Under the pieces are notes generated by a model, which did not search any database, was not told where the DNA came from, and saw only the letters and a program-made list of their open reading frames with translations. From IMG/VR virus record IMGVR_UViG_3300032116_001056, positions 1 through 27,965 of that record: DNA of 27,965 bases. One strand, 5' to 3'. The DNA is from a virus. Shown in pieces: positions 1,804 to 21,848 of this stretch (position 1 is its first letter; every line of letters begins with the position of its first letter). A program made the translations under genes and the position numbers.

Positions 1804-1832
1804 ATTATACAGAAATGGTATTTTCCGGTCAA
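1804..1832 (-). promoter_or_regulatory. Sigma70-type early promoter P2
   Basis: On the minus strand, TTGACC (1827-1832) is followed after exactly 17 bases by a perfect TATAAT (1804-1809). It lies 32 bases before the ATG of the 57-residue gene. Spacing and hexamers are near consensus for the host housekeeping sigma factor. It should drive the leftward small-gene cluster. Confidence 0.87.
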
Positions 1833-1860: not shown

Positions 1861-1887
1861 AAAAACCCTGCGCAGGGCAGGGTTTTT
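1861..1887 (-). terminator. Rho-independent terminator after the porin gene
   Basis: An 11-bp perfect inverted repeat (AAAAACCCTGC with GCAGGGTTTTT) surrounds a 5-base loop. On the minus strand it ends in a run of T and lies 23 bases after the porin stop. Because the arms end in A and T runs, it could work in both directions. It separates porin transcription from promoter P2. Confidence 0.88.
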
Positions 1888-1910
1888 CAAGGTACTACCT
1901 GTGAAACTTT

Positions 1911-3059
1911 TTAGAACGTGTGACGGATACCAGCAGTGATGCCCACGTTGGTTGACTTGGTTGTTGCTACCAGGTCATTTGAGGCTTTGGCATGATCGAT
2001 GATACCATAGAGATTGGTACGCTTGCTGAGGTTGTACTCATTGAACAGTACCGTGGTCTTGAGATCACCTTTGGAACCCAACCCGTTTTTGTACTCGCCG
2101 TCATAGTAAGCCAATGTAGTGGCGAACTTGGAAGATAGTTCATAGCGCACACCCACGCTGGCGATCTTGGCTTCGGTAGAAGGGCCGGCTGTGGTAGCCA
2201 GACCCAAGATCGGCGTGGTAGCAGTGGCCGTGGTGGTCAAGTGTGAAGCCACGTATCCAGCATCGCTATCAACTGTGTGATAACCAGCGGTCAGCGTGGC
2301 AGCACCAAACTTGACATTGCCACCGTAGGTGGCGCTGGTAGCTTTTTTACCTGTGGCATCTTTGGCTACAAACTGCGCGGCACCCAACACAGCCGGACCT
2401 GCGTCAACTGTAGCACCAAAGGTAGTGGCTGTGCTGGCCGACTCACTACCGGCCACACCACCTGGGCTGTAACCTGCGATCACGCCTACTGGACCAAATT
2501 TGTTAACATATTTCAACATGCCGTCGGCACGGCTGTTTTTGAGACCGTTGGTGTTGCCATACGCATAGATCGACTGATTGATGCGAGCCGAACTCACACC
2601 ATAGGTCGCATTGGATACGACCACTGGAGCTGCAACGCCGTCCATGGCCGCACGCAAAGGATCTGTGATACCACGTGCCGCGATGTCAAGAGTGGCACCG
2701 GTGTTGCGGCCCAACTGCAATTCACCAGCGGTTTTGCTTCCCAGAGCTACATAGGCGAAACGATCAAACAAGATCGAACCCGTGCTACCGTTTTGGCTTG
2801 ATGCACCAGTGGCTGTGTTGATTCCGCCTTCTAACACAAATCGAGTTGATAGTCCATTGCCCAGATCCTCAGTGCCGCGGAAGCCCAAACGGCTGGTAGA
2901 CTGGACACCGCTGTACATATCAGTGCGGTTGCCACCGGCAGCATTGGCTGACGAATCCTGTCGTACTGCATTGTCAAACACACCATAGATGCTAATTGAT
3001 TGTGCGTTAACGGTTGAGACCATCGCGGCCAAGGCCGCAGCTATTGCTAATTTTTTCAT
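1911..3059 (-). CDS. Outer-membrane porin (Gram-negative porin family)
   Basis: A 382-residue protein. Residues 1-19 are a classical signal peptide (MKKLAIAAALAAMVSTVNA) with a cleavage-type V-N-A, followed by QSISIYGVFDNAV, the typical first strand of a betaproteobacterial general porin. Further porin signs are SRLGFRGTEDLGNGLSTRF near residue 75, alternating beta strands throughout, and the C-terminal GITAGIRHTF ending in Phe, the BAM recognition signature. Length is normal for the family (about 350-390). The start is set by the signal peptide and an AAAAGGAAAA ribosome site; a frame running back to 3113 would add an implausible leader. Function: a trimeric outer-membrane channel for small hydrophilic solutes. 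In a phage it may replace or mask a receptor porin, as known for the Lc porin of lambdoid phage PA-2, or alter nutrient uptake (inference). It has its own terminator, and phage genes lie on both sides. Confidence 0.93.
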   Translation of the reverse strand: MKKLAIAAALAAMVSTVNAQSISIYGVFDNAVRQDSSANAAGGNRTDMYSGVQSTSRLGFRGTEDLGNGLSTRFVLEGGINTATGASSQNGSTGSILFDRFAYVALGSKTAGELQLGRNTGATLDIAARGITDPLRAAMDGVAAPVVVSNATYGVSSARINQSIYAYGNTNGLKNSRADGMLKYVNKFGPVGVIAGYSPGGVAGSESASTATTFGATVDAGPAVLGAAQFVAKDATGKKATSATYGGNVKFGAATLTAGYHTVDSDAGYVASHLTTTATATTPILGLATTAGPSTEAKIASVGVRYELSSKFATTLAYYDGEYKNGLGSKGDLKTTVLFNEYNLSKRTNLYGIIDHAKASNDLVATTKSTNVGITAGIRHTF

Positions 3060-3067
3060 TGATTTTC

Positions 3068-3099
3068 CTTTTCGAAAAGAATGTGGCATGAAACGCCAC
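3068..3099 (-). promoter_or_regulatory. Porin leader with two small hairpins at the ribosome site
   Basis: The porin leader contains a 12-base perfect palindrome, CTTTTCGAAAAG (3068-3079), whose 3' half overlaps the AAGGA ribosome site, and just upstream a 5-bp stem GTGGC/GCCAC (3083-3099) with a 7-base loop. In RNA the first could partly hide the ribosome site. Further up, TATAGATA (3134-3141) differs by one base from the T4 late consensus and overlaps the stop of the preceding gene. These are sequence resemblances only. Confidence 0.35.
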
Positions 3100-3136
3100 G
3101 AATTACTTAGCATGTGCAGATGCCATAGAAAAATAT

Positions 3137-4192
3137 CTATATGACTATATTGGCCCGGGCTTCTGAGACCGAATACTGAGCACTGCTGATATTGTTGTCA
3201 ACCGTGGTATTCTCATTGACGTCTACCAGTTGTGTGTCCAGATTGATACCCACGGCATTAAGTACCGCTATATTCCTTCCCTCTCTCATGCTGGCTATCA
3301 CGGCCTGACCAGTGATCGTGGCCATGTTGGCAGTTTGTTCAAAAAACTGTGCTTTGCCACCTGTGGTGATATCGGTGCCAAATTCGTGCAATCTCGATGC
3401 CAGGCCCAGGCTGGCGCTGGTTTGATTTGCTATGATGTTGGCGTTGCTGAAATTGCCTACAACAATGTTGGCTATGTCAATACCAGCCGAGATTAGATTG
3501 TTCTGATTGTATTCTACTTGAAAAGCGATGTTTCCAAAGGACTGATTACTCACAGCAGTTTCTGAAGGATATGCAGTGGCGATGTTGTTGATCCGGGTGT
3601 TGGCGTTGCTGATAAGGCTGATGAAGGCAGAGTTGATTACGTTGCCGTACGATGTATCGGGGCCGTAGGTACCTTGGGCCGGAAGTGGCGCAGGAATGGT
3701 GATGAAATACTCGTCTCCGGCAGGTGGTATACCAGGCGTCACAGTGGTATATGCTCCAGCCAAGGTATAGGACATAACAGTGTACACTCCATTCACTGCC
3801 GATGAAGGTGTGCCCCCGTTTCCGGTCAACGGATTCAAAGCGCCAATTGATGCCAAGCTGATCAGTGCGTTAGATGTTTCGGGCAAATCCACGTTGGTGG
3901 TATTTCCCGATGCCACGCCTAATAGATCATTGACTGTGAGAGAGTTGCCTGGGCCTGTGCCAGTGGCAAAGGTGTTGCCCCAATAGGTTGAAATAGCATC
4001 AGGCAAGGGCTGTGTCAAAGCATTGATCAGCGGTAGGTCTTTGTTGCTTTCTAATGCCTCGACAGCCCGTGACAGTGTTGGTAGATCAGTATCGAAAATC
4101 TTTTTGACCTGGCGAAGGCTGCGACTCAGTGCTTGGTTGGCCAAGGCCTGATCCGGAGGAATGATTTTTTTAAGATTGTTATAAGTGGTCAT
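3137..4192 (-). CDS. Probable virion structural protein
   Basis: A 351-residue protein. Residues 1-70 are helical (LSRSLRQVKKIFDTDLPTL), the middle is rich in Gly, Thr, Ser, Asn and Pro and probably beta-structured or disordered, and residues 240-351 are helical and Ala/Asn-rich. There is no signal peptide or catalytic motif. Its start overlaps the stop of the 370-residue gene by ATGA, and that gene lies directly after the PAAR gene, so the three probably form a tail-tip or baseplate unit. This is argued from context and composition; I do not recognise a named family. Alternative: a tail-associated adhesin. The early predicted helical segment may serve in assembly. Confidence 0.6.
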   Translation of the reverse strand: MTTYNNLKKIIPPDQALANQALSRSLRQVKKIFDTDLPTLSRAVEALESNKDLPLINALTQPLPDAISTYWGNTFATGTGPGNSLTVNDLLGVASGNTTNVDLPETSNALISLASIGALNPLTGNGGTPSSAVNGVYTVMSYTLAGAYTTVTPGIPPAGDEYFITIPAPLPAQGTYGPDTSYGNVINSAFISLISNANTRINNIATAYPSETAVSNQSFGNIAFQVEYNQNNLISAGIDIANIVVGNFSNANIIANQTSASLGLASRLHEFGTDITTGGKAQFFEQTANMATITGQAVIASMREGRNIAVLNAVGINLDTQLVDVNENTTVDNNISSAQYSVSEARANIVI

Positions 4193-5301
4193 ATGAACTT
4201 TTGTGTGCCTTTCCTTACCGTGGTGTTAACCAAGGAGCCTAACTCCGGCAGACCAGATCTCGCCTGTCCTATGAGATCATTGGTGATGGGCAAGGTGTTA
4301 AGAGACCGAGTGAAATATTTTTCTAAGTTAGTGTTGACTGCTCCCCCAGTGGTGGCATAGATTCCTCGTAGTCCGTCGGGTGTGGGCATGGTCAGCGTGG
4401 CAAAGCTATTGGGTAGTATCTTGGTTGGATTCAGCAGATCAGCCATGCTGTTGATGCCAGGGGTGGTCACACCCAACAGGCCTGTGACCTGTTGCAGATC
4501 CCTACCAGTGATCTTGGTCATGCCGTCATAGAGCAGTGCATTTGCGTTGTCGGCCAAGCCTGCAAAATTTCCGCTGATCAAACTTCCGAGGTTGCCAGAA
4601 CTAAGTCCTGATTCTCTCAGCACATTTTCCACCGATGGTATGAGACCGCCTACATCTGTGAGTTGTTTGACCAGGGCCGCTGGATTGCCCAGATTCTCAA
4701 GATTTTTCATGTCAATGAGATTGCCGAGATTCGACAGGTCTCCACCAAAGGCTCCAAAAGCCTGTGAGACCTGGCTGAAACTGCCGGTAATGAGATTGTC
4801 CATCCCCCCGGTCAATGGACCAAAGGTCTTGGCAATGTCTCCGATGTTGGCACCGCTGTTGATAAATTGATTGGCCTGGCTCAGGAAACCGTCGGCACCA
4901 TTGAAAATCTGAGCAAACTTGGTGATGTCTCCGGCGCCCATGAGATTGGTAGCCATGCTACCGACCAGGCCGGTAAATCCGCCATCAAACACTCCGCCTG
5001 GTGCAATACTCCCAAGGGCACTGGCAAAATCTCCAGGGATGGCATTGGTTAAAGCAGGAAAGATATCGGCACCCAGAGTCCTGAGACTGTCTAAGGTACC
5101 ACCCGACAGCACTCCTGTAGCACTGCTAACAATGTCGCTGAACTGTGAAGTAATGCCCAGACCATTGAAGCTGCCCAAGGCGCCGGTCAGGGCTGATGAT
5201 ACACCGAGGCTGCTACCGATACCCGACAATGCGCTGGCACCCGGGATCATGCCCGCACCAGCTATCATCATTACCGAACTGAGTGGACCACCGCAACTCA
5301 T
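4189..5301 (-). CDS. Probable virion/baseplate protein with Gly-Leu-Asn repeats
   Basis: A 370-residue protein beginning MSCGGPLSSVMMIAGAGMIP. It is strongly enriched in Gly, Ser, Leu, Asn and Ala, with many degenerate units of the type L-G-N-L-I or F-G-x-L-x-G (for example FGGDLSNLGNLIDMKNLENLG, residues about 185-205). Such composition is common in phage tail-tip and baseplate proteins. No enzyme motif. It follows the PAAR gene by one base and overlaps the 351-residue gene by ATGA, which suggests joint production with the spike tip. The N-terminal hydrophobic stretch (residues 8-25) could be a membrane-interacting segment or buried core. Specific role not recognised. Confidence 0.6.
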   Translation of the reverse strand: MSCGGPLSSVMMIAGAGMIPGASALSGIGSSLGVSSALTGALGSFNGLGITSQFSDIVSSATGVLSGGTLDSLRTLGADIFPALTNAIPGDFASALGSIAPGGVFDGGFTGLVGSMATNLMGAGDITKFAQIFNGADGFLSQANQFINSGANIGDIAKTFGPLTGGMDNLITGSFSQVSQAFGAFGGDLSNLGNLIDMKNLENLGNPAALVKQLTDVGGLIPSVENVLRESGLSSGNLGSLISGNFAGLADNANALLYDGMTKITGRDLQQVTGLLGVTTPGINSMADLLNPTKILPNSFATLTMPTPDGLRGIYATTGGAVNTNLEKYFTRSLNTLPITNDLIGQARSGLPELGSLVNTTVRKGTQKFI

Positions 5302-5302
5302 G

Positions 5303-5593
5303 CTAACCTATGATCACATTGTTACTGCCAGTGGCTACCCGTGTGCAAGCGGCCAATCCGTCGCCTACCCTGGCTGCCGCACGACCATTGATGTTTACCG
5401 TGGCGCTGCCACCTATGATGGGGGCAGTATGGCCGCCGCATCTTTTACCAGCGGGTCTGAGATGCGGCGAAGAAAAATCACCGCGCCGAGCTGCTCCTCG
5501 ACCGTTGATCACTACATTGTTGCTTGCCGATGCAATGACATAACCACTGCAATGTGGTACTCCGGCATCACCTCTTCTGGCCGCTGCGGGCAT
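5303..5593 (-). CDS. PAAR-motif spike-tip protein
   Basis: A 96-residue protein of the PAAR family. It opens MPAAARRGDAGVPHCSG and shows repeated beta units with NNVVINGRGAARRGD and TVNINGRAAARVGD (around residues 25-38 and 68-82), the typical 'V-x-I-N-G-x-x-A-A-R-x-G-D' pattern, with His and Cys residues (His14, Cys15, His44, Cys52, His54, Cys82) that could bind the tip metal. Length matches free-standing PAAR proteins such as T4 gp5.4. Role: a sharp cone that caps the central tail spike and helps pierce the outer membrane. The start at 5593 has a GGAG ribosome site; it overlaps the previous gene by 26 bases. Two large structural-type genes follow immediately. Confidence 0.9.
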   Translation of the reverse strand: MPAAARRGDAGVPHCSGYVIASASNNVVINGRGAARRGDFSSPHLRPAGKRCGGHTAPIIGGSATVNINGRAAARVGDGLAACTRVATGSNNVIIG

Positions 5594-9805: not shown

Positions 9806-10231
9806 TTAACCTATTAAACTGGATAATTTATCACGATCCAGCGTTCTCGTGATAGTTGGAATATTTGATGAGATATTTAAGACCTGGCCCGTGTTCCAAT
9901 TCAATATATATTTTCCTTTGTTGACCAGGACTAAATTGCCTGCAAAACACTGTGCCAACTCAAGATCCGTTACGTCAGATCTATCCAACAATTCAATAGT
10001 ATACAATATACCCAGGGCTCTTGCAACATCACAGAACACATTGTCAGCCAAAAGGCTCCAGGGGTCTGGCCAGGATTGATGATCATCCCAGTGCAGATAG
10101 TAAGGACGCCATGGGGTTTGGCTCCACCATTGATTGATTTCTAACAATGCGGATTCAAGGTCAAGGCCTTGGCATCGTCGGCGCAGATCCGACCAATCTC
10201 TTAGTCTATTTTGGAAATCGGGTGACCACAT
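9806..10231 (-). CDS. Conserved T4-like phage protein (YYLHWDD/WPDPW)
   Basis: A 141-residue protein with a characteristic run: INQWWSQTPWRPYYLHWDD, then SWPDPWSLLADNVFCDVARA and ALGILYTIELL. I recognise this Trp-rich pattern from conserved, uncharacterised proteins of marine and freshwater T4-like phages. The Cys-x-x-A-R-A-L-G helix after the DPW loop recalls a papain/transglutaminase-like Cys helix, but the matching His is not obvious, so no enzymatic claim is made. The start is the ATG at 10231, overlapping the tailspike stop as TGATG. No ribosome site is visible, so translation is probably by termination-reinitiation. It is followed by nrdA after four bases. Confidence 0.72.
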   Translation of the reverse strand: MWSPDFQNRLRDWSDLRRRCQGLDLESALLEINQWWSQTPWRPYYLHWDDHQSWPDPWSLLADNVFCDVARALGILYTIELLDRSDVTDLELAQCFAGNLVLVNKGKYILNWNTGQVLNISSNIPTITRTLDRDKLSSLIG

Positions 10232-11850
10232 CAAGCGAGATGGCTTATTGAGTAGGTCAGGGTTCCCCCGGTGCTGTCACCGGTGTTGGTAGTGGTATAC
10301 TTGATCAAAATGTTAGCACCACTCTGTTCAGCGTACAAAGTCACACCGGTATCGATGTTTTCGTTATAGTCGTCTGAATAACTCAAGGTACCTACACTGT
10401 CGTCAAAACTGTAGGCTACCACTGTGAACACACCATGCCGTAGCAGGCTGCCACGTTCTATGCTGTAGTTCATGCTGAAACTCTTGCTCTGTGTAAGATT
10501 CCAGGTGAACACAGTGGCCGGACTGGATTGATTGTCATCCATGACAAAGGTACGACCATTGTTACGGGCATATCTGCCTACCTGTAGCTGAGTGCCGGTA
10601 GTGACTTCGCCACCTATGATCTCCACACGTGGGAATGAGTTGCTGTCAGTGTCGTCACGCTCAAACAGATCACTGATGCTGACATTGTCGTCATTGCCAA
10701 ACAGGATTACCGGTGTGGCCGGATTGCCCGCGCCTTGGAATTCGTTGCCCACGTTATAGAACGCATTATAGGCAGATGCGCACAGAGATACGTCATCAAA
10801 AATGATGCCTTCGCCATACACCGTATCAAACATGTTCTGTACTACACGCACGCCGGTTGGCCCACCGTTGACCACAGCACCATCGCCCATGACCACACCC
10901 TGATACAGCGTGGCGAATTTGCCGTTGCTTATGGTCACGCTTTGTATTTGCTCATCAGTGTTGAGACCATAAGTTAGTCCAGCAAAACGACACTTGTCAA
11001 AGGTGATCTGATTGCAGATCTCCGTAGTAGTGCTGTTGAATCTCACACCAGCGACGTTGTCCGTGGCACCATTGGCCGTGATCACGGCAGTAGTCAGGGG
11101 ACCAAGGAAGTTTACGCTGTCAAAATAACACTGGGTAGCGTCCTCAATCAAGAACACATCAGTGACCGGCCCGGTCTGGAAGGTCATGGAAGAAATTTCA
11201 ATGTTGCGTGGGGGCGTGCCACCGTTGTTGCCTATATTGGGTCCAGTCTGTGGCAGGCCGTCGGGTCCAATCACATTGTCGCCAAATCTGGCCACGTATT
11301 CTGTCAGCGTGGAAATGTCCACTGCCTCGTCAAGATAGATGATGGAACAGTCGGCGCCCTCACCTACCAACTTGGCATAGGTAGGAATCACTATGCTCTG
11401 TGTTACACGATAGGTGCCCGCTGGAAAATACAAGGTACGTCTGACCTGGGTGTTGGTATCTCGGCAATAGAGCTGTGTCAACGCACGTTGTACCGCGGAT
11501 GTATCATCTGCTACACCATCGCCCACTGCACCAAAATCTCTCACGTCGGCAAAATCATCCAGTTTTTCCTGCACTGTACGGATCACAGGATCTGATGCAT
11601 CAGGACCGGTCTGGGCCGCATAGCCCACTGCCAAATCTTTATAAGTGTAAGGGCTCAGGGCCAGGAGATCGCTGAATTCTGTCAGGATCTCTGTGTTGCC
11701 GATCACAGGGGCACCTTCTTGCAAGGTTCCGTTGCCAATGAACAGCCTGCGCTGGTCCACGCACCAGCCGAATTCTGCACCGGCTAACTGCGGTAGATTT
11801 TCGTAGAGCCCTTTGCGGTTGGTAATACGCGATACTTGTACAATTGCCAT
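10231..11850 (-). CDS. Tailspike/tail fibre with pectate-lyase-type beta-helix
   Basis: A 539-residue receptor-binding-type protein. Residues 1-58 are an N-terminal attachment module (LAGAEFGWCVDQRRLFIGNG then EGAPVIGNTEILTEF) seen at the start of many phage fibre proteins. Residues 100-125 (VRDFGAVGDGVADDTSAVQRAL) are the start of a Pectate_lyase_3-type parallel beta-helix, with coils continuing to about 420 (FDKCRFAGL, VQNMFDTVYGEGIIFDDV). The C-terminal 120 residues are beta-rich and Thr/Ser/Gly-rich. Such spikes bind and often cleave surface polysaccharide; catalytic residues cannot be assigned by eye. The GCTAAATA element at 11873-11880 is a likely late promoter. It stands beside nrdA rather than with the other tail genes. 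Confidence 0.87.
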   Translation of the reverse strand: MAIVQVSRITNRKGLYENLPQLAGAEFGWCVDQRRLFIGNGTLQEGAPVIGNTEILTEFSDLLALSPYTYKDLAVGYAAQTGPDASDPVIRTVQEKLDDFADVRDFGAVGDGVADDTSAVQRALTQLYCRDTNTQVRRTLYFPAGTYRVTQSIVIPTYAKLVGEGADCSIIYLDEAVDISTLTEYVARFGDNVIGPDGLPQTGPNIGNNGGTPPRNIEISSMTFQTGPVTDVFLIEDATQCYFDSVNFLGPLTTAVITANGATDNVAGVRFNSTTTEICNQITFDKCRFAGLTYGLNTDEQIQSVTISNGKFATLYQGVVMGDGAVVNGGPTGVRVVQNMFDTVYGEGIIFDDVSLCASAYNAFYNVGNEFQGAGNPATPVILFGNDDNVSISDLFERDDTDSNSFPRVEIIGGEVTTGTQLQVGRYARNNGRTFVMDDNQSSPATVFTWNLTQSKSFSMNYSIERGSLLRHGVFTVVAYSFDDSVGTLSYSDDYNENIDTGVTLYAEQSGANILIKYTTTNTGDSTGGTLTYSISHLA

Positions 11851-11861
11851 GGTTGGATCCG

Positions 11862-12401
11862 TTAAGTTCGTGTATTTAGCGGAACCATCTGCACGCTCAG
11901 GGTCACTCTAAGCACATTATCTACCTCAGGACCCAGTCCTTGATGGTACTGTGTGCTGTCATAATCCAGCATCAAGCCCGGTTCGGGCAACACCCTGCAG
12001 ATTTCTTGGTCTCCTTGGAAAAACACAGTGTGACCGCACCAGATCTCTTGCCACACAGGATTAAGATAGGCCAGCAGAGTGCGGGCTCCAGGCCGGATGC
12101 TGTCTCTGTGCCGTGCGCTGTGCATGCCCCGGGTCTGTCCGTTGATTACCACACGGTTCGCTCGCAAGTCGCTATGGTTCTGTATCATGTGCTGAACCAG
12201 GCACTTGATCGGGTCCGGCACGTTCGGCAGCCAGATGGATGCAAGATTTCCAGCGGTGTTGGTCAGCGTGGTAACTGGCCAATTCCAGTGCCAGTGATGA
12301 TCACCGTGCATGGCAATGTAGCGCCAGCCAGGCTTCTGATCTATCACTTGCCAGGCAGCGAGGTGCAACTCGGGGTCAAGACGACAGGTAGTATAACTCA
12401 A
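11862..12401 (-). CDS. 2-oxoglutarate/Fe(II) oxygenase (P4H-like)
   Basis: A 179-residue double-stranded beta-helix oxygenase. The iron-binding facial triad is His98 and Asp100 (SARHRDSIRPG) with His153 (TQYHQGLGP), and Arg165 (LRVTLSV) should bind 2-oxoglutarate. Length suits a minimal prolyl-4-hydroxylase-like domain. Phages of this group often carry such enzymes, and substrates are unknown. The start is uncertain: I use a TTG at 12401 preceded by GGTGGAAA, overlapping the nuclease gene by 26 bases. The first ATG, at 12440, would give a 65-base overlap and add residues that look like noise. It is one of three oxygenases in the window and is cotranscribed with the nuclease, iscA and iscU. 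Confidence 0.82.
   Translation of the reverse strand: MSYTTCRLDPELHLAAWQVIDQKPGWRYIAMHGDHHWHWNWPVTTLTNTAGNLASIWLPNVPDPIKCLVQHMIQNHSDLRANRVVINGQTRGMHSARHRDSIRPGARTLLAYLNPVWQEIWCGHTVFFQGDQEICRVLPEPGLMLDYDSTQYHQGLGPEVDNVLRVTLSVQMVPLNTRT
11873..11880 (-). promoter_or_regulatory. T4-type late promoter before the tailspike
   Basis: GCTAAATA followed by CA on the minus strand, ending 23 bases before the tailspike ATG. With T4 spacing the transcript would start near 11866, leaving a leader of about 16 bases that contains a GGA ribosome site. It lies within the last codons of the upstream oxygenase gene. Confidence 0.55.
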
Positions 12402-13089
12402 GTCGTTTCCACCATTCTTGCTCCCAATGATCAAATTCATCAGGACGGAGCATGAATTCTTGATATTCCGGAGGCTTGACGATGTTGAACTGCGCATCCA
12501 CTTCGGGTTTGACACACATCAAGATCACACCTTTGCGTATTTTTGTTCCATGCACTTCGTTATGCGCCAGGGCATAGGCCACCAGCTGTAGTTTGTAATC
12601 GTCGATCCACTCTTCGCGTTTGGGTTTGTTGGTCTGCTTGTAGTCCAAGATGGATTCTTCACCCAGGTGTATGCCACAGCCATCTGTGGTTCCAGCATAC
12701 AGGCCAGGAAAATACAAAGGCACTTCCACACCCCAGAATTCTTCAACATTTTTAAGTCCTTGATCGATCACGGTCATGGCCATGGCATGGCTGGCCCAGG
12801 CATAGGGATTGGTACCAGCTGGCTTTATCTCGCCGGTCTTGACATAGTGCTCCAGGTAGGTGTGCATCCTGGTGCCGCGATTGGCTGCTTCTGTGGTAAT
12901 GGCCTGGGCACGCTCGGTGCCCACACGTTTTTTCCACTCGTTCAAGGCTCTACGGCTTTCTTCGGGCTTGGTACGATCTAAGATCGTTGTAACACTGGGC
13001 AATCTTTGGCCATCAGGTGTGGCATAGAGTCGGCGACCATCTTCGGTTGCGCGATGCAACGGCTGGTAATCAAATCGGTGATTGATCAA
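12376..13089 (-). CDS. PD-(D/E)XK (RecB-type) nuclease
   Basis: A 237-residue single-domain nuclease of the PD-(D/E)XK superfamily. An early RGTRMHTYLEHYV helix (71-83) is followed by Glu122 in GVEVPLY, Asp136 in YAGTTDGCG, the Asp149-Tyr-Lys151 motif in SILDYKQTNK, and the Gln168/Tyr172 motif in YKLQLVAYALAHN, the order typical of RecB/Cas4-like exonucleases. It lacks the four-cysteine iron-sulfur cluster of Cas4 and AddB. Likely role: DNA end processing in phage recombination or host DNA breakdown. The start (ATG at 13089) overlaps the iscA stop by ATGA. The opening motif RLPSVTTIL with an N-terminal KPEES is normal for this phage family. Confidence 0.87.
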   Translation of the reverse strand: MINHRFDYQPLHRATEDGRRLYATPDGQRLPSVTTILDRTKPEESRRALNEWKKRVGTERAQAITTEAANRGTRMHTYLEHYVKTGEIKPAGTNPYAWASHAMAMTVIDQGLKNVEEFWGVEVPLYFPGLYAGTTDGCGIHLGEESILDYKQTNKPKREEWIDDYKLQLVAYALAHNEVHGTKIRKGVILMCVKPEVDAQFNIVKPPEYQEFMLRPDEFDHWEQEWWKRLELYYLSS

Positions 13090-13415
13090 ATTCTAAAACT
13101 TTCTCCGCAACCACAACGGTCGCGTTCATTGGGGTTGATGAAATCAAATCCTTCGTTGAGTCCTTTCTTGACCCAGGCCATGGTCATGCCTTCGAGGTAA
13201 GGGCGATGTTTAGGATCTATGTACACACGTACACCGTTGACGTCATAGTGTGCCATACAGTGTTCCCTACCTTGCTCGGTATCTACATATTCCAAGGTGT
13301 AAGCCAATCCCGAACACCCTGTGGTGCGCACACCAATCTTTATGCCTATACCGCGACCACGACGTGCGATGTTGTCTTTGACCCGGCAGGCTGCTTCATC
13401 AGTCAGTGACAGCAT
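13086..13415 (-). CDS. iscA: A-type iron-sulfur carrier (IscA/ErpA/SufA family)
   Basis: A 109-residue A-type carrier. The three cluster-binding cysteines are present: Cys34 in VRTTGCSGLAYTLEY, and Cys101 and Cys103 in the terminal CGCGESF. Length and layout match E. coli IscA (107 residues), including GLNEGFDFINPN before the Cys pair. Function: accepts an Fe-S cluster, usually from IscU, and delivers it to target enzymes. It overlaps the end of iscU by 17 bases and the nuclease start by ATGA, so the pair is coupled. No degraded positions are seen, so it looks functional. SufA or ErpA cannot be excluded by sequence alone, but the iscU neighbour favours the Isc type. Confidence 0.95.
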   Translation of the reverse strand: MLSLTDEAACRVKDNIARRGRGIGIKIGVRTTGCSGLAYTLEYVDTEQGREHCMAHYDVNGVRVYIDPKHRPYLEGMTMAWVKKGLNEGFDFINPNERDRCGCGESFRI

Positions 13416-13791
13416 GTTTTTTACGATAATCTTCTATGGCGGCTTTAATAGCATCTTCGGCCAAGATCGAACAGTGTATCTTGACCGGTGGAAGTGCTAA
13501 CTCTTGGGCGATTTGAGTGTTTCGGATTGTTGCGGCTTGGTCGAGGGTTTTTCCTTTGACCCATTCGGTGACAAGGCTTGAGCTTGCGATCGCCGAGCCG
13601 CAGCCATACGTTTTAAAGCGAGCGTCTGTAATAATACCTGTATCATCATCTACCTTTATTTGCAATTTCATCACATCACCGCAGGCAGGAGCACCGACCA
13701 TGCCGGTGCCCACTTGCGTGTCTGCCTTGTCAAATGATCCTACGTTGCGGGGATGCTCGTAGTGATCTAATACTTTTTCACTATAAGCCAT
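13399..13791 (-). CDS. iscU: Iron-sulfur cluster scaffold IscU
   Basis: A 130-residue IscU, extremely close to the proteobacterial protein (MAYSEKVLDHYEHPRNVGSF; E. coli IscU begins almost identically). Cluster residues Cys37 (APACGDVM), Asp39, Cys64 (YGCGSAIASSS), His106 and Cys107 (KIHCSILAED) are intact, and the LPPVK motif (100-104) recognised by the HscA chaperone is kept, so it should work with the host IscS/HscA/HscB machinery, none of which is encoded here. A GGAGGT ribosome site precedes the ATG. It sits 24 bases after the oxygenase gene. It is an auxiliary metabolic gene acquired from bacteria (inference from similarity). Confidence 0.97.
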   Translation of the reverse strand: MAYSEKVLDHYEHPRNVGSFDKADTQVGTGMVGAPACGDVMKLQIKVDDDTGIITDARFKTYGCGSAIASSSLVTEWVKGKTLDQAATIRNTQIAQELALPPVKIHCSILAEDAIKAAIEDYRKKHAVTD

Positions 13792-13815
13792 GTTGGGTAC
13801 CTCCTACTGTTGTAC

Positions 13816-14412
13816 TTATATTAGATTGCCACTGACTGATATCCTGATGCCATCCGTTGTGGTAAAAGGATTTACCTGATGTACCAGTTTGCCAGGAAAC
13901 ATGATCATCTTGCCACGCCAGTCTTGATCTACTGGCAAGGTATAGGTACAGACCTTGCCCAAGATCGTGGTGTATTTGAATTCGAAACAACTGTGCCTCT
14001 GTCCGCGAGCATCTGGATACACCGCCAATTCTTCTTTGAGATCGTAGGGTATCTGCACCCAGATCACGAAACTGAGATCACCATCATGATCATGAGATGG
14101 ATTGTATTCATGCCGCTTTTGGAAGTTGGCCCAAACGCTGTCTAACTCAAAGGGTTTTGGCCGTGTCACGGTGCTGGCCGAAGTATATTGAGCAGCCACT
14201 TGCTGAATGAATTCACGGAACTCGGGTGATGGATCAAAACTGTATTGATCTTGAATATGCCCCACGAGATGATCGTTCCAGGGTTTGTATTGATCAGGGT
14301 TGGCTTGGATGTCTGCGCACACCTTGTCAAGATAGGACAGAGCCACCGGAGGGATGTCGAACATTATGAAGCCAAGATTGGGCAGTTGGTGATGTTTTAT
14401 TTCGATCTGCAT
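13816..14412 (-). CDS. 2-oxoglutarate/Fe(II) oxygenase
   Basis: A 198-residue oxygenase of the type common in T4-like cyanophages. The double-stranded beta-helix core has HDHDGDLSFVIWVQIP (His107/His109 region as the first iron ligands), a central FEFKYTTILG strand, and the distal GKMIMFPGKLVHQV (His178) with GIRISVSGN (Arg190 for 2-oxoglutarate). An N-terminal extension of about 90 helical residues precedes the core. Substrate unknown; peptide hydroxylation is a common guess for the family. The ATG at 14412 lies exactly where transcription from the promoter at 14419-14447 should begin, so the mRNA is probably leaderless. It is the first gene of the oxygenase-iscU-iscA-nuclease-oxygenase unit. 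Confidence 0.85.
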   Translation of the reverse strand: MQIEIKHHQLPNLGFIMFDIPPVALSYLDKVCADIQANPDQYKPWNDHLVGHIQDQYSFDPSPEFREFIQQVAAQYTSASTVTRPKPFELDSVWANFQKRHEYNPSHDHDGDLSFVIWVQIPYDLKEELAVYPDARGQRHSCFEFKYTTILGKVCTYTLPVDQDWRGKMIMFPGKLVHQVNPFTTTDGIRISVSGNLI

Positions 14413-14418
14413 GTGTCA

Positions 14419-14447
14419 AGTATAGACTATGCCAGGATCAAGGTCAA
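14419..14447 (-). promoter_or_regulatory. Sigma70-type promoter P3, leaderless
   Basis: On the minus strand, TTGACC (14442-14447) and TATACT (14419-14424) are separated by 17 bases. The A of the oxygenase ATG (14412) lies 7 bases after the -10, the normal position of transcription start. The -35 is identical to those of P1 and P2. It would drive the oxygenase, iscU, iscA and nuclease genes, probably early. Confidence 0.7.
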
Positions 14448-14448
14448 T

Positions 14449-14799
14449 CTAAATGGCTCGTTTGGTTGCTCGTTTGGCCATGCTGTCCACGGTTTGGCGT
14501 GCTTGGTCAACGGACATTTCGGGAGGGGTCTGTTCTGCGCCCTGGAACACCACAGTGGCAGTGTCAGGATCATCGCCTTCGACATCGTTGATAAAAGCAT
14601 TGAGTGGTGGTCGTTGGCTCATCTGCTTGAGCAAGCCGGGCGTAAGGCTGATCCTCTGGCCCTGTGCCAAATTGGCAAAGGTGCGATAGCTGATTATTTT
14701 TTTCTGACTATCAGTATCTTGAATGCGGCCAAGCAAAAACTGGCTGATGGCAGCCAGTTTCTCTTCATCGGGATTTGCAGCTACTTCTCGGATGATCAT
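14449..14799 (-). CDS. Small conserved-type phage protein
   Basis: A 116-residue protein starting MIIREVAANPDEEKLAAISQ. The first half looks like a helical bundle (LAAISQFLLGRIQDTDSQKK) and a FANLAQGQRISLTPGLLKQM segment; the second half is acidic and probably extended, ending in a basic SMAKRATKRAI helix. No catalytic motif. It overlaps the stop of the 288-residue coiled-coil gene by ATGA, so the two are probably made together and may interact. The short MIIREV opening resembles that of other small proteins of this phage type. Function unknown. Confidence 0.65.
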   Translation of the reverse strand: MIIREVAANPDEEKLAAISQFLLGRIQDTDSQKKIISYRTFANLAQGQRISLTPGLLKQMSQRPPLNAFINDVEGDDPDTATVVFQGAEQTPPEMSVDQARQTVDSMAKRATKRAI

Positions 14800-15662
14800 C
14801 TGCGTTCACGGCCCAGACTGGTCGCTGGTGTTTCTTCTTCGGGCTCTTCAGCGGGCAAGTTAGCATCCAAGGACAGATCAGCATCTACTTCTCCGCCTGC
14901 TGGCTCAGCGGCGGGCTGTGCTGGTGCCATGCTTTGATCTGCGCCGGGTACCTGCGGAGCCTGGCCTGTGAGCACACCTTGTGCTGATTCCAGTTCGGTC
15001 TTGCCTGCTTGCACAGCTGCCAGCAAGTTAGTCAGTGCCGCCGCTGCCTGGCTTTGGAACTGCGATGCTTGTTCCACGCCCATGTCATTTTTTATAGAAT
15101 CTGTCAAAGCAGGGAGATCCTTGAACTGCATCTCAGAAATGTCCTCCATCATGCCCTGCACTCGATCGATCATGTCTTGGCTGGCCAACACTACCTGTGC
15201 TTGTTGTAGTTCGCTGGCTTCACGGAGACGGCGACTACGCTTTTTATTGTTCTCTGCCATCATGGTAGGATTGTTCATGGCACGCTGGAGTTCGGAGATC
15301 TCGCGCTGTTTTTCTTTGATCTGATCCTGGATTTCGCGCTTTTTCTGGGCCACTTGGGCTGTCTGCAAGGCAGCCTGTTTGGCCACATCGCCTATGCCAG
15401 CTGCAGATGCAGGTGCTTGTTCGATAACGTTTTTCAATGCCTGTTCTACCATGATCAAGCGCAGATAATCAGGATTGCGTTCAGCAAAATGACGGCTCAC
15501 GCTGCCACGCCACTCGCGTAACAATCCTGTGGTACGATTCAACAATGCTTGTGCTTGTTCCGTGCTCAAACGATTGAAGTCCATGCGGTCGCCCATGTGG
15601 CTGCGCAGGGTTTTAGCGATATGGTCTGTTGGACGACGTGCGTCCAGATCTTGCAGTTTCAT
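14796..15662 (-). CDS. Coiled-coil phage protein with acidic tail
   Basis: A 288-residue protein. Residues 1-75 contain a helical domain (LSTEQAQALLNRTTGLLREW), residues 95-150 form a strong Lys/Glu/Gln coiled coil (KKREIQDQIKEKQREISELQ), residues 155-225 are a further helix, and the last 60 residues are a Pro/Ala/Glu-rich disordered acidic tail. This fits a scaffold, prohead-core or adaptor-type protein, but I do not recognise the family with certainty. It has a likely late promoter, GCTAAATA (15686-15693), and a GAGGA ribosome site, so late expression is expected. It is coupled to the 116-residue gene by ATGA. Confidence 0.68.
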   Translation of the reverse strand: MKLQDLDARRPTDHIAKTLRSHMGDRMDFNRLSTEQAQALLNRTTGLLREWRGSVSRHFAERNPDYLRLIMVEQALKNVIEQAPASAAGIGDVAKQAALQTAQVAQKKREIQDQIKEKQREISELQRAMNNPTMMAENNKKRSRRLREASELQQAQVVLASQDMIDRVQGMMEDISEMQFKDLPALTDSIKNDMGVEQASQFQSQAAAALTNLLAAVQAGKTELESAQGVLTGQAPQVPGADQSMAPAQPAAEPAGGEVDADLSLDANLPAEEPEEETPATSLGRERR

Positions 15663-20147: not shown

Positions 20148-21848
20148 ATGGCGACAGAATTACAGCAGATCGAGGAATTGTTAGCAGAATTCCGCAGGTC
20201 CTGTCCGGACACACTGGACTACCAAGAAAGATTAGCAGAAGAATTTGGCATAATCATCAACCAGAGATTCACGGATTATTTCCTCAAGATACGCAGGGTC
20301 CTAGATCTCAATAAAGACATACCACACATGACACGCGGATCCGCAGGATCCAGCCTGGTGTGCTATCTCATGGGCATAACAGATGTGGATCCCATAGAAT
20401 GGCGCATACCCCTGGCCCGATTCCTCAATCCCTTCCGAGACGATCTGCCTGATGTGGACATCGATGTGCCACACCACCAACAAGAGTTGGCCATGCAAAG
20501 GATCTTTGATGCCTGGCCCGGCAAGACTGCTCGCATCAGCAACTATGTGATGTACAAAGAAAAATCGGCCCGGCGCGAAGCAGCCAAGCGCCTGGGCGCT
20601 CGAGGACGCTTGCCCAAGGAAATAGACTATGCCAAACTGGGCGTGGATGTGGAAGAAGCACGCCGCATAGAGAAAAAACTCATGGGCAAGAAACGTTGCC
20701 TGAGCAAGCACTGCGGTGGAGTCATAGTGTTTGATCGCAAGTTACCGCAGAGCCTGTTCCGCGATGACAATCTCATCTTGCTGGACAAAAACGAAGTAGA
20801 GGATCTCGAGCACCTCAAAGTAGACATCCTGGCCAATCGTGGGCTCAGCCAACTCATGGAGATTGATGCCGCCCGCCGGATACACGAATATCCCAAGGAA
20901 GATGATCTCACAGCGGATCTGCTACAGCGCGGGGATGTCTTGGGAGTGACACAGGGAGAATCCCCGGCCATGCGCCGACTGTTCCGAGCCATCAAGCCCA
21001 CGTCTGTAGAAGACTGTGTGTTTGCCACGGCCTTGGTACGACCCGTGGCCGTGGAAGGTCGTAAAAAGGCTTCGTTCTTCCATGACTGGACCAAAAAAAC
21101 TGTGCAAGAGTCGGCCATAGTATGCGAAGACGATGCCATAGAAAAGATCATGAAACTGATCTCTGTAAATGCCTACGAAGCCGACATGTATCGCCGGGCC
21201 TTTGCCAAGCGCAACGAAGAAAAGGTCATGGAGTTCATGGCTCGGCTGGGTGACCACCCTGATCGACACGCCATCTATCAAGAGATGCAGAGTTTATCAG
21301 GTTTTGGCCTGTGCCGCGCACATGCTGTGAACCTTGGCCGCTTGATCTGGGCCCTGGCCTGGCAGAAAGCACACAACCCCAGAGAGTTCTGGCGTGCCGC
21401 ACTCAAGCATTGCCAAGGAAGTTATGCTCGTTGGGTCTATCGCAACGAAGCCAAGCGAGCAGGCTGGGACCTGCGCGATCTTGGATTTGACAACTGGATC
21501 ACTGAAGATCCTGTGGAGTCATTTGTGGAGCATGGCTGCTGGAATTCTCCGGGCTTCTTGCCGCGAATGGGAGTAAGGAATCTCTACTTGGATAAGTTTG
21601 AGTTTGCTGGTATCGTGGCCAACAGCCGGGTATTCCGCAGAGATCGACAAAAATATATTCACTTCATCACCCTGGGAGTAGGCGAAGGAGAGTATGTGGA
21701 CCTTATCGTGGATCGGCCCATTAAGTATGATTCAGGCTCTGTGATAGTAGGACAAGGCGAACGTCAAAACAGAGACGGTAGCCAGTTTTTGATGTGTCAA
21801 AAATCCAATGTCAAAAGCATAAAAATTGACGAGTATCTAAATCAATGA
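20148..21848 (+). CDS. Reduced C-family (DnaE-like) DNA polymerase
   Basis: A 566-residue protein related to bacterial DNA polymerase III alpha. Residues 62-110 hold RGSAGSSLVCYLMGITDVDP and LPDVDIDVPHH, the palm with catalytic Asp104 and Asp106. HLKVDILANRGL gives the third, Asp226. SKHCGGVIV (186-194), GVTQGESPAMRRLFRAIKP (266-284) and GFGLCRAHAVNL (385-396) match fingers and helix-hairpin regions, and residues 490-560 look like an OB-fold. Compared with DnaE (about 1,160 residues), the N-terminal PHP domain (about 270 residues) and the tau/clamp-binding end are missing. So it could polymerise but has no proofreading or PHP domain here. It heads the only plus-strand operon and overlaps the SGNH gene by ATGA. 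T4-like phages normally use a B-family enzyme, so a repair or accessory role is possible. Confidence 0.85.
   Translation: MATELQQIEELLAEFRRSCPDTLDYQERLAEEFGIIINQRFTDYFLKIRRVLDLNKDIPHMTRGSAGSSLVCYLMGITDVDPIEWRIPLARFLNPFRDDLPDVDIDVPHHQQELAMQRIFDAWPGKTARISNYVMYKEKSARREAAKRLGARGRLPKEIDYAKLGVDVEEARRIEKKLMGKKRCLSKHCGGVIVFDRKLPQSLFRDDNLILLDKNEVEDLEHLKVDILANRGLSQLMEIDAARRIHEYPKEDDLTADLLQRGDVLGVTQGESPAMRRLFRAIKPTSVEDCVFATALVRPVAVEGRKKASFFHDWTKKTVQESAIVCEDDAIEKIMKLISVNAYEADMYRRAFAKRNEEKVMEFMARLGDHPDRHAIYQEMQSLSGFGLCRAHAVNLGRLIWALAWQKAHNPREFWRAALKHCQGSYARWVYRNEAKRAGWDLRDLGFDNWITEDPVESFVEHGCWNSPGFLPRMGVRNLYLDKFEFAGIVANSRVFRRDRQKYIHFITLGVGEGEYVDLIVDRPIKYDSGSVIVGQGERQNRDGSQFLMCQKSNVKSIKIDEYLNQ

Follow-up and report, generated by a model that had tools for sequence, protein, structure and literature searches.

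The best-known phage porins come from a few lambdoid prophages. Lc, the porin of lambdoid phage PA-2, and NmpC, the porin of prophage DLP12, are both OmpC-type, and Lc replaces the receptor porin of PA-2. For porins of the Lc/NmpC type, a 3'-end small RNA that lowers host porin, IpeX, has been described (PMC12197685). A viral porin of another kind, OmpL, was found in a glnK-amtB-ompL cassette of marine viruses (PMC8115048), and porins of 'uncultured Caudovirales phage' (A0A6J5L4P1 and others) are already listed in BFVD, where they are known by annotation alone. Phage-encoded porins as such are known; in the literature on phage and viral porins, which yielded the one viral OmpL case, no account of a slot with a late promoter or of barrel exchange was found.

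The window, i.e. the whole stretch of viral DNA analysed here, covers an IMG/VR record in full (27,965 bases). It codes for a porin and also for NrdA, NrdB, a DnaB-like helicase, a primase and DUF6267. The features around the porin gene are as follows (window coordinates).

1804..1832 (-), sigma-70-like promoter TTGACC-N17-TATAAT, read from the sequence, serving the downstream small early-type genes
1861..1887 (-), intrinsic terminator AAAACCCTGCCCTGCGCAGGGTTTT in the conserved 3' flank
1911..3059 (-), complete porin open reading frame of 382 amino acids, Porin_4 family (ATG 3057-3059, stop 1911-1913)
1914..3002 (-), part coding for the mature barrel
3003..3059 (-), part coding for the signal peptide (MKKLAIAAALAAMVSTVNA), with inferred cleavage site
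3060..3073 (-), ribosome-binding box GAAAAGGAAAATCA, nearly invariant at the slot
3083..3099 (-), hairpin GTGGCGT-TTC-ATGCCAC in the 5' untranslated region, between the late motif and the ribosome-binding box
3104..3111 (-), T4-type late promoter motif GCTAAGTA, 52 nt before the porin ATG
3137..4192 (-), n2, a conserved protein of 351 amino acids without known family, upstream of the slot
4189..5301 (-), n1, a conserved protein of 370 amino acids without known family
5303..5593 (-), PAAR-motif protein (spike tip), which marks a structural neighbourhood

The product of the open reading frame at 1911-3059 starts with MKKLAIAAALAAMVSTVNA, followed at the inferred cleavage site by QS, and ends in HTF; signal peptide and C-terminal Phe were read from the sequence and by a simple rule. 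The protein matched Pfam Porin_4 with E = 9.9e-33 and 114.7 bits (cut-off 27), its Porin_1 score of 22.3 bits was below the cut-off of 23.7, and the PHROG search with it gave no match. The AlphaFold2 model was a general-porin-type barrel (mean pLDDT 76.5), in line with the 16-strand porins and their L3 loop, which joins strands 5 and 6. Strands and helices were modelled after residue 120, and the loops were partly of low confidence. The best match among solved structures was BpsOmp38 (8jto; Z 32.0, rmsd 2.6 over 307 residues), followed by Omp32 (2fgq; Z 29.1). R57, R100 and R177 of the window porin aligned with R38, R75 and R133 of Omp32, respectively, three arginines that line the Omp32 eyelet. 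A sequence-only reading of this DNA had described a complete porin gene with signal peptide, barrel and terminal Phe, and open reading frame, Porin_4 match and predicted fold all agree with it. The gene, complete and phage-borne, is probably functional.

The closest relatives in fold are the general porins of the Burkholderiales (Porin_4), such as Omp32 of Delftia/Comamonas acidovorans and BpsOmp38 of Burkholderia pseudomallei. They share fold, signal peptide and C-terminal Phe with the window porin, which has arginines at the Omp32 eyelet positions and a profile E of about 1e-64. The window porin differs from them by its longer loop L3 and in being carried by a phage, behind a leader and a T4-type late promoter, and its full-length identity to any porin compared was about 35% at most. 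With Lc and NmpC it has in common that a phage carries its own complete porin and likely alters the porin surface of the host; these are OmpC-type porins of temperate lambdoid phages, whereas the window porin belongs to Porin_4, is carried by a T4-type phage (relative with gp23; NrdA, NrdB, DnaB-like helicase and primase) and lies in an exchangeable slot behind a late promoter. Like the window porin, viral OmpL was found on phage contigs from metagenomics, but it derives from Flavobacteriales and stands beside ammonium genes, none of which occur at the window slot (PMC8115048). The BFVD porins of 'uncultured Caudovirales phage' are likewise phage-encoded and have a similar predicted fold.

Misassembly of host and phage DNA at 1887-3137 was ruled out by synteny in contigs from other samples, in which a barrel gene follows the same two genes (n1, n2) and small early-type genes recur downstream. 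A search with the n1 protein (4189-5301), for instance, led to L002 and L003, in both of which n1 and n2 are directly followed by a porin. The largest relative, L017 (genome G005, 191,865 bases), has the gene order of the window and carries a T4-type gp23 capsid gene, which bears out a T4-type phage, a large phage with Gram-negative hosts, as carrier. The porin gene had been placed between small early-type genes and tail genes. The downstream small genes have their own predicted sigma-70-like promoter; for n1 and n2 a tail identity is plausible only, because they follow the PAAR spike gene, and no family was matched by either protein among Pfam and PHROG profiles. In distant relatives n1 and n2 are fused. 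No family B DNA polymerase was matched in G005 or the window. At 20148-21848 (+) of the window, a DNA polymerase III alpha-like gene was observed in this T4-type phage group.

The sequence beyond n2 was long enough for this comparison in 12 close relatives, counting the window; in 11 of them a barrel with signal peptide directly follows n2, namely ten Porin_4 proteins (window included) and one Gcw_chp protein. The locus is thus kept by relatives, which the sequence-only reading had proposed to check. Most of the Porin_4 barrels are of one type, here called type A; the window and L011 represent two further Porin_4 lineages. The slot of L017 holds the Gcw_chp barrel (TorF-type putative porin, PF09694; E = 1.9e-47), which stands behind the same leader as the window porin and belongs to an unrelated sequence family. 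That the largest relative is without the gene is true for Porin_4, but was rejected as a reading, since the Gcw_chp barrel fills its slot. The slot of L007 is empty, and the barrel gene is therefore dispensable. A Porin_4 gene was found at the slot also in the distant relatives L218 and L221, which have the fused n1-n2. In L020, L023, L025 and L026, a small protein whose start resembles a signal peptide is encoded just after n2.

The control sequences of the slot were compared in the same phages. The late motif NNTAA[AG]TA was located 52-57 nt upstream of the ATG in the window and nine porin-bearing relatives, and it also precedes the Gcw_chp gene. The motif stood before 15 of 22 phage barrel genes versus 1.8 expected, a count in which the rows are partly near-copies and the events not independent. 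In the 192-kb relative G005 it preceded 20 of 159 genes and in G004 20 of 98, with 1.9 expected in each case. This enrichment before the genes of G005 and G004 marks the motif as a real promoter signal of this phage group. The late promoter consensus of T4-like cyanophages is NATAAATA (PMC2984593); a TATAAATA-like promoter upstream, the mark of a T4-type late gene, was found before the porin gene as GCTAAGTA at -52. The search for a gp55-like late sigma factor with Pfam Sigma70_r2, a poor probe for gp55, gave no match.

Downstream of the late motif, relatives hold a hairpin at the same place of the leader, with differing stem letters (combined shuffle p = 0.0008, regions picked by hand). A 20-nt leader is kept at the slot despite saturated synonymous sites. 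The sequence AGAAAAGGAAAATCAATGAA, with up to two changes allowed, was specific to the slot across all DNA examined, the version before Gcw_chp included; L002 has a variant form of the ribosome-binding box. Behind the stop codon, the window shares 81-93% identity with seven locus relatives that have the usual 3' flank, and the strong intrinsic terminator at 1861-1887 agrees with the earlier claim that the gene has its own terminator. The sigma-70-like promoter at 1804..1832 is conserved in relatives as well. Rfam gave no family at a meaningful score over the porin gene, with its conserved 3' flank; the single match was at chance level, and a known RNA element across the gene was rejected. Judged from these signals, the porin sits in an expression cassette of late promoter, 5' hairpin, fixed ribosome-binding box and terminator.

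Conservation of the flanks was contrasted with divergence of the barrel. n1 and n2 of the window are 59-69% and NrdB 78-85% identical to those of the relatives, the porin only 32-39%. The mature barrel of the window shares 30-37% amino acid identity with the type A porins that most related phages carry. At the DNA level, the signal-peptide part is 0.63-0.78 identical to that of the locus phages (68-78% without L002), compared with 0.55 at best for true bacterial porins and a mean of 0.43 for the comparison set; in the mature part, identity to the locus phages drops to 42-49%. In the tree of the mature part, the window porin was placed among bacterial porins, near an Oxalobacteraceae sequence, with Burkholderiales rows nearest. 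The nearest bacterial clade, which the sequence-only reading had expected to point to the host as well, is Burkholderiales; at 32-35% identity, the nearest bacterial porins are too distant to name a host. Joining the window to type A was rejected by the AU test on the mature part (p = 0.0004); a single clade for all slot porins was rejected too (p = 0.014).

The same divergence would arise without exchange if the mature part evolved very fast from one ancestor and the likeness to bacterial porins were a long-branch effect. The window row does have a long end branch (about 1.05) and moderate nearest-neighbour support (89/92). This explanation is nevertheless very improbable given the AU test, the slow evolution of type A porins (dN/dS about 0.1), the different family of the Gcw_chp barrel, and a further pair of phages: L006 and L011 are 90% identical in n1 and 82% in n2, and their porins are 35% identical. 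The L011 porin is another replacement.

Type A porins themselves move between phages. The porins of L006 and L012 are 91% identical (dS 0.41), their neighbours, which are saturated at synonymous sites, only 72% (n1, dS 1.8), 68% (n2, dS 2.5) and 83% (NrdB, dS 1.5). Closely similar type A porins (87-95%) are present in L052-L054; the two of these phages that were tested both have a family B DNA polymerase, which is absent from the 192-kb relative. The porin of L005 matches that of L012 at 96% and was kept out of the lead evidence; the 3' flank of L005 resembles L052-L054, so that the assembly is possibly chimeric. The dN/dS of about 0.1 indicates that the product of type A is under purifying selection and kept functional, and the loops are conserved within type A, so the surface loops bear no trace of an arms race. 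Taken at the level of sequence, the slot keeps its flanking signals while the barrel is exchanged, also for a non-homologous one. Type A-like porins without the late motif were observed at a different locus in other phages (L060-L064, around 9962-10978).

With the window porin as sole query, scans of viral and bacterial collections gave no match, and a DNA-level search of phage records gave no near relative of the window; alignments were therefore used as queries in place of the single sequence. Two restricted, alignment-based scans of IMG/VR yielded porins in dozens of contigs, several of them larger than 100 kb; among the small contigs, some may stem from host DNA or from prophages. With about 50 distinct phage porins from these scans, the earlier statement that phage-coded porins are rare was not upheld. 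The overall interpretation of the sequence-only reading thus holds for the complete phage-borne porin and the kept slot; besides rarity, it had missed the late promoter, the leader and terminator as slot signals, the barrel exchange and the unrelated barrel.

The porin tree contained 52 phage rows and about eight label changes, at least four of which are forced by well-supported branches. Such changes, the patchy presence outside the close group and the empty slot of L007 would be expected if host porin genes were gained and lost repeatedly as neutral passengers without benefit. This reading, the least probable of those considered, is already disfavoured by the conserved slot with its dedicated late promoter and leader and by the dN/dS given above.

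From the gene, slot, signals and exchange established by the sequence, we infer expression, membrane insertion and an exclusion or masking effect. The porin gene would be transcribed from the T4-type late promoter and translated from the fixed ribosome-binding box. Sec would export the product, which would then fold as a porin in the outer membrane of the host; there the phage barrel may replace or dilute native porins to which other phages or, on cell remnants, the phage's own progeny would otherwise bind, much as Lc does with the receptor porin of PA-2. Recombination, at one end within or close to the codons of the signal peptide and at the other close to the stop codon, would swap the mature barrel while the control sequences are kept. 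That the gene occupies a dedicated slot for outer-membrane proteins whose barrel changes the host surface late, replacing or diluting native porins, is the preferred reading, with a probability of about 0.5.

Receptor change, nutrient entry and support of lysis, the roles considered in the sequence-only reading, are not separable by sequence; of the three, a surface change is somewhat favoured by the late timing and the exchange of barrels. What the occupants have in common is an outer-membrane barrel and not one sequence family, which makes the surface a likelier target than any one solute. Counting against a surface change are the poor fit of late expression to blocking early superinfection, the conserved type A loops and the empty slot of L007. 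Late expression does fit masking of receptors from progeny or late rivals. Receptor replacement or masking is accordingly ranked first, permeability second and lysis third.

As an auxiliary uptake gene, the porin would widen or retune outer-membrane permeability for nutrients or precursors (phosphate, anions, deazaguanines) during a long late phase. R57, R100 and R177 are compatible with an open, anion-preferring pore, purifying selection would be expected, and in L052-L054 the type A porin adjoins a YhhQ-like vitamin/queuosine-precursor transporter (PF02592) and queD- and queE-like genes. Viral OmpL beside glnK-amtB provides a precedent (PMC8115048). Around the slot of the window and its close relatives, no gene for uptake or metabolism was recognised; genes for uptake or assimilation next to the porin, as OmpL has them, occurred only in L052-L054, where the locus is a different one. 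The swap to the unrelated Gcw_chp barrel suits a fixed solute badly. Host porins are long-lived, and a new porin made late adds little to them. An uptake role is on balance somewhat unlikely. In L052-L054, around 10001-14858, the type A porin was observed beside cupin-like, queD-like, YhhQ-like (PF02592) and queE-like genes; these neighbours of the porin, except for the transporter, were named by reading the sequence.

The late promoter and the strong leader and terminator would also suit a large late dose of barrels that stresses the envelope and helps release. Such a lysis aid is quite improbable, as purifying selection and kept eyelet arginines are needless for a mere stressor and no holin, endolysin or spanin was recognised beside the porin gene.

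In these T4-type phages a porin is thus a standard genome component, late-type and exchangeable, and many large phages have comparable genes. If the barrel changes receptors, the competition of phages over an already infected host would have a testable mechanism, and porin genes would have a reservoir through which they pass between phages and bacteria. More tentatively, the fixed promoter, leader and terminator could form a landing site for barrels of unrelated families, with which the phage refits the surface of whatever host it has and shifts which phages bind.

Some further genes were observed. A tail-spike-like protein with a pectate-lyase domain is encoded at 10231-11850 (-) of the window, with a late motif 30 nt upstream; the domain suggests that a receptor is a polysaccharide. 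NifU/IscU-like and IscA-like iron-sulphur genes stand side by side at 13086-13791 (-), the first of them preceded by the late motif TATAAGTA. In L003 (8179-8934) and L008 (7121-7858), an extra open reading frame lies between the NrdB and glutaredoxin-like genes, and the L003 product, as read from its sequence, starts like a GIY-YIG homing endonuclease.
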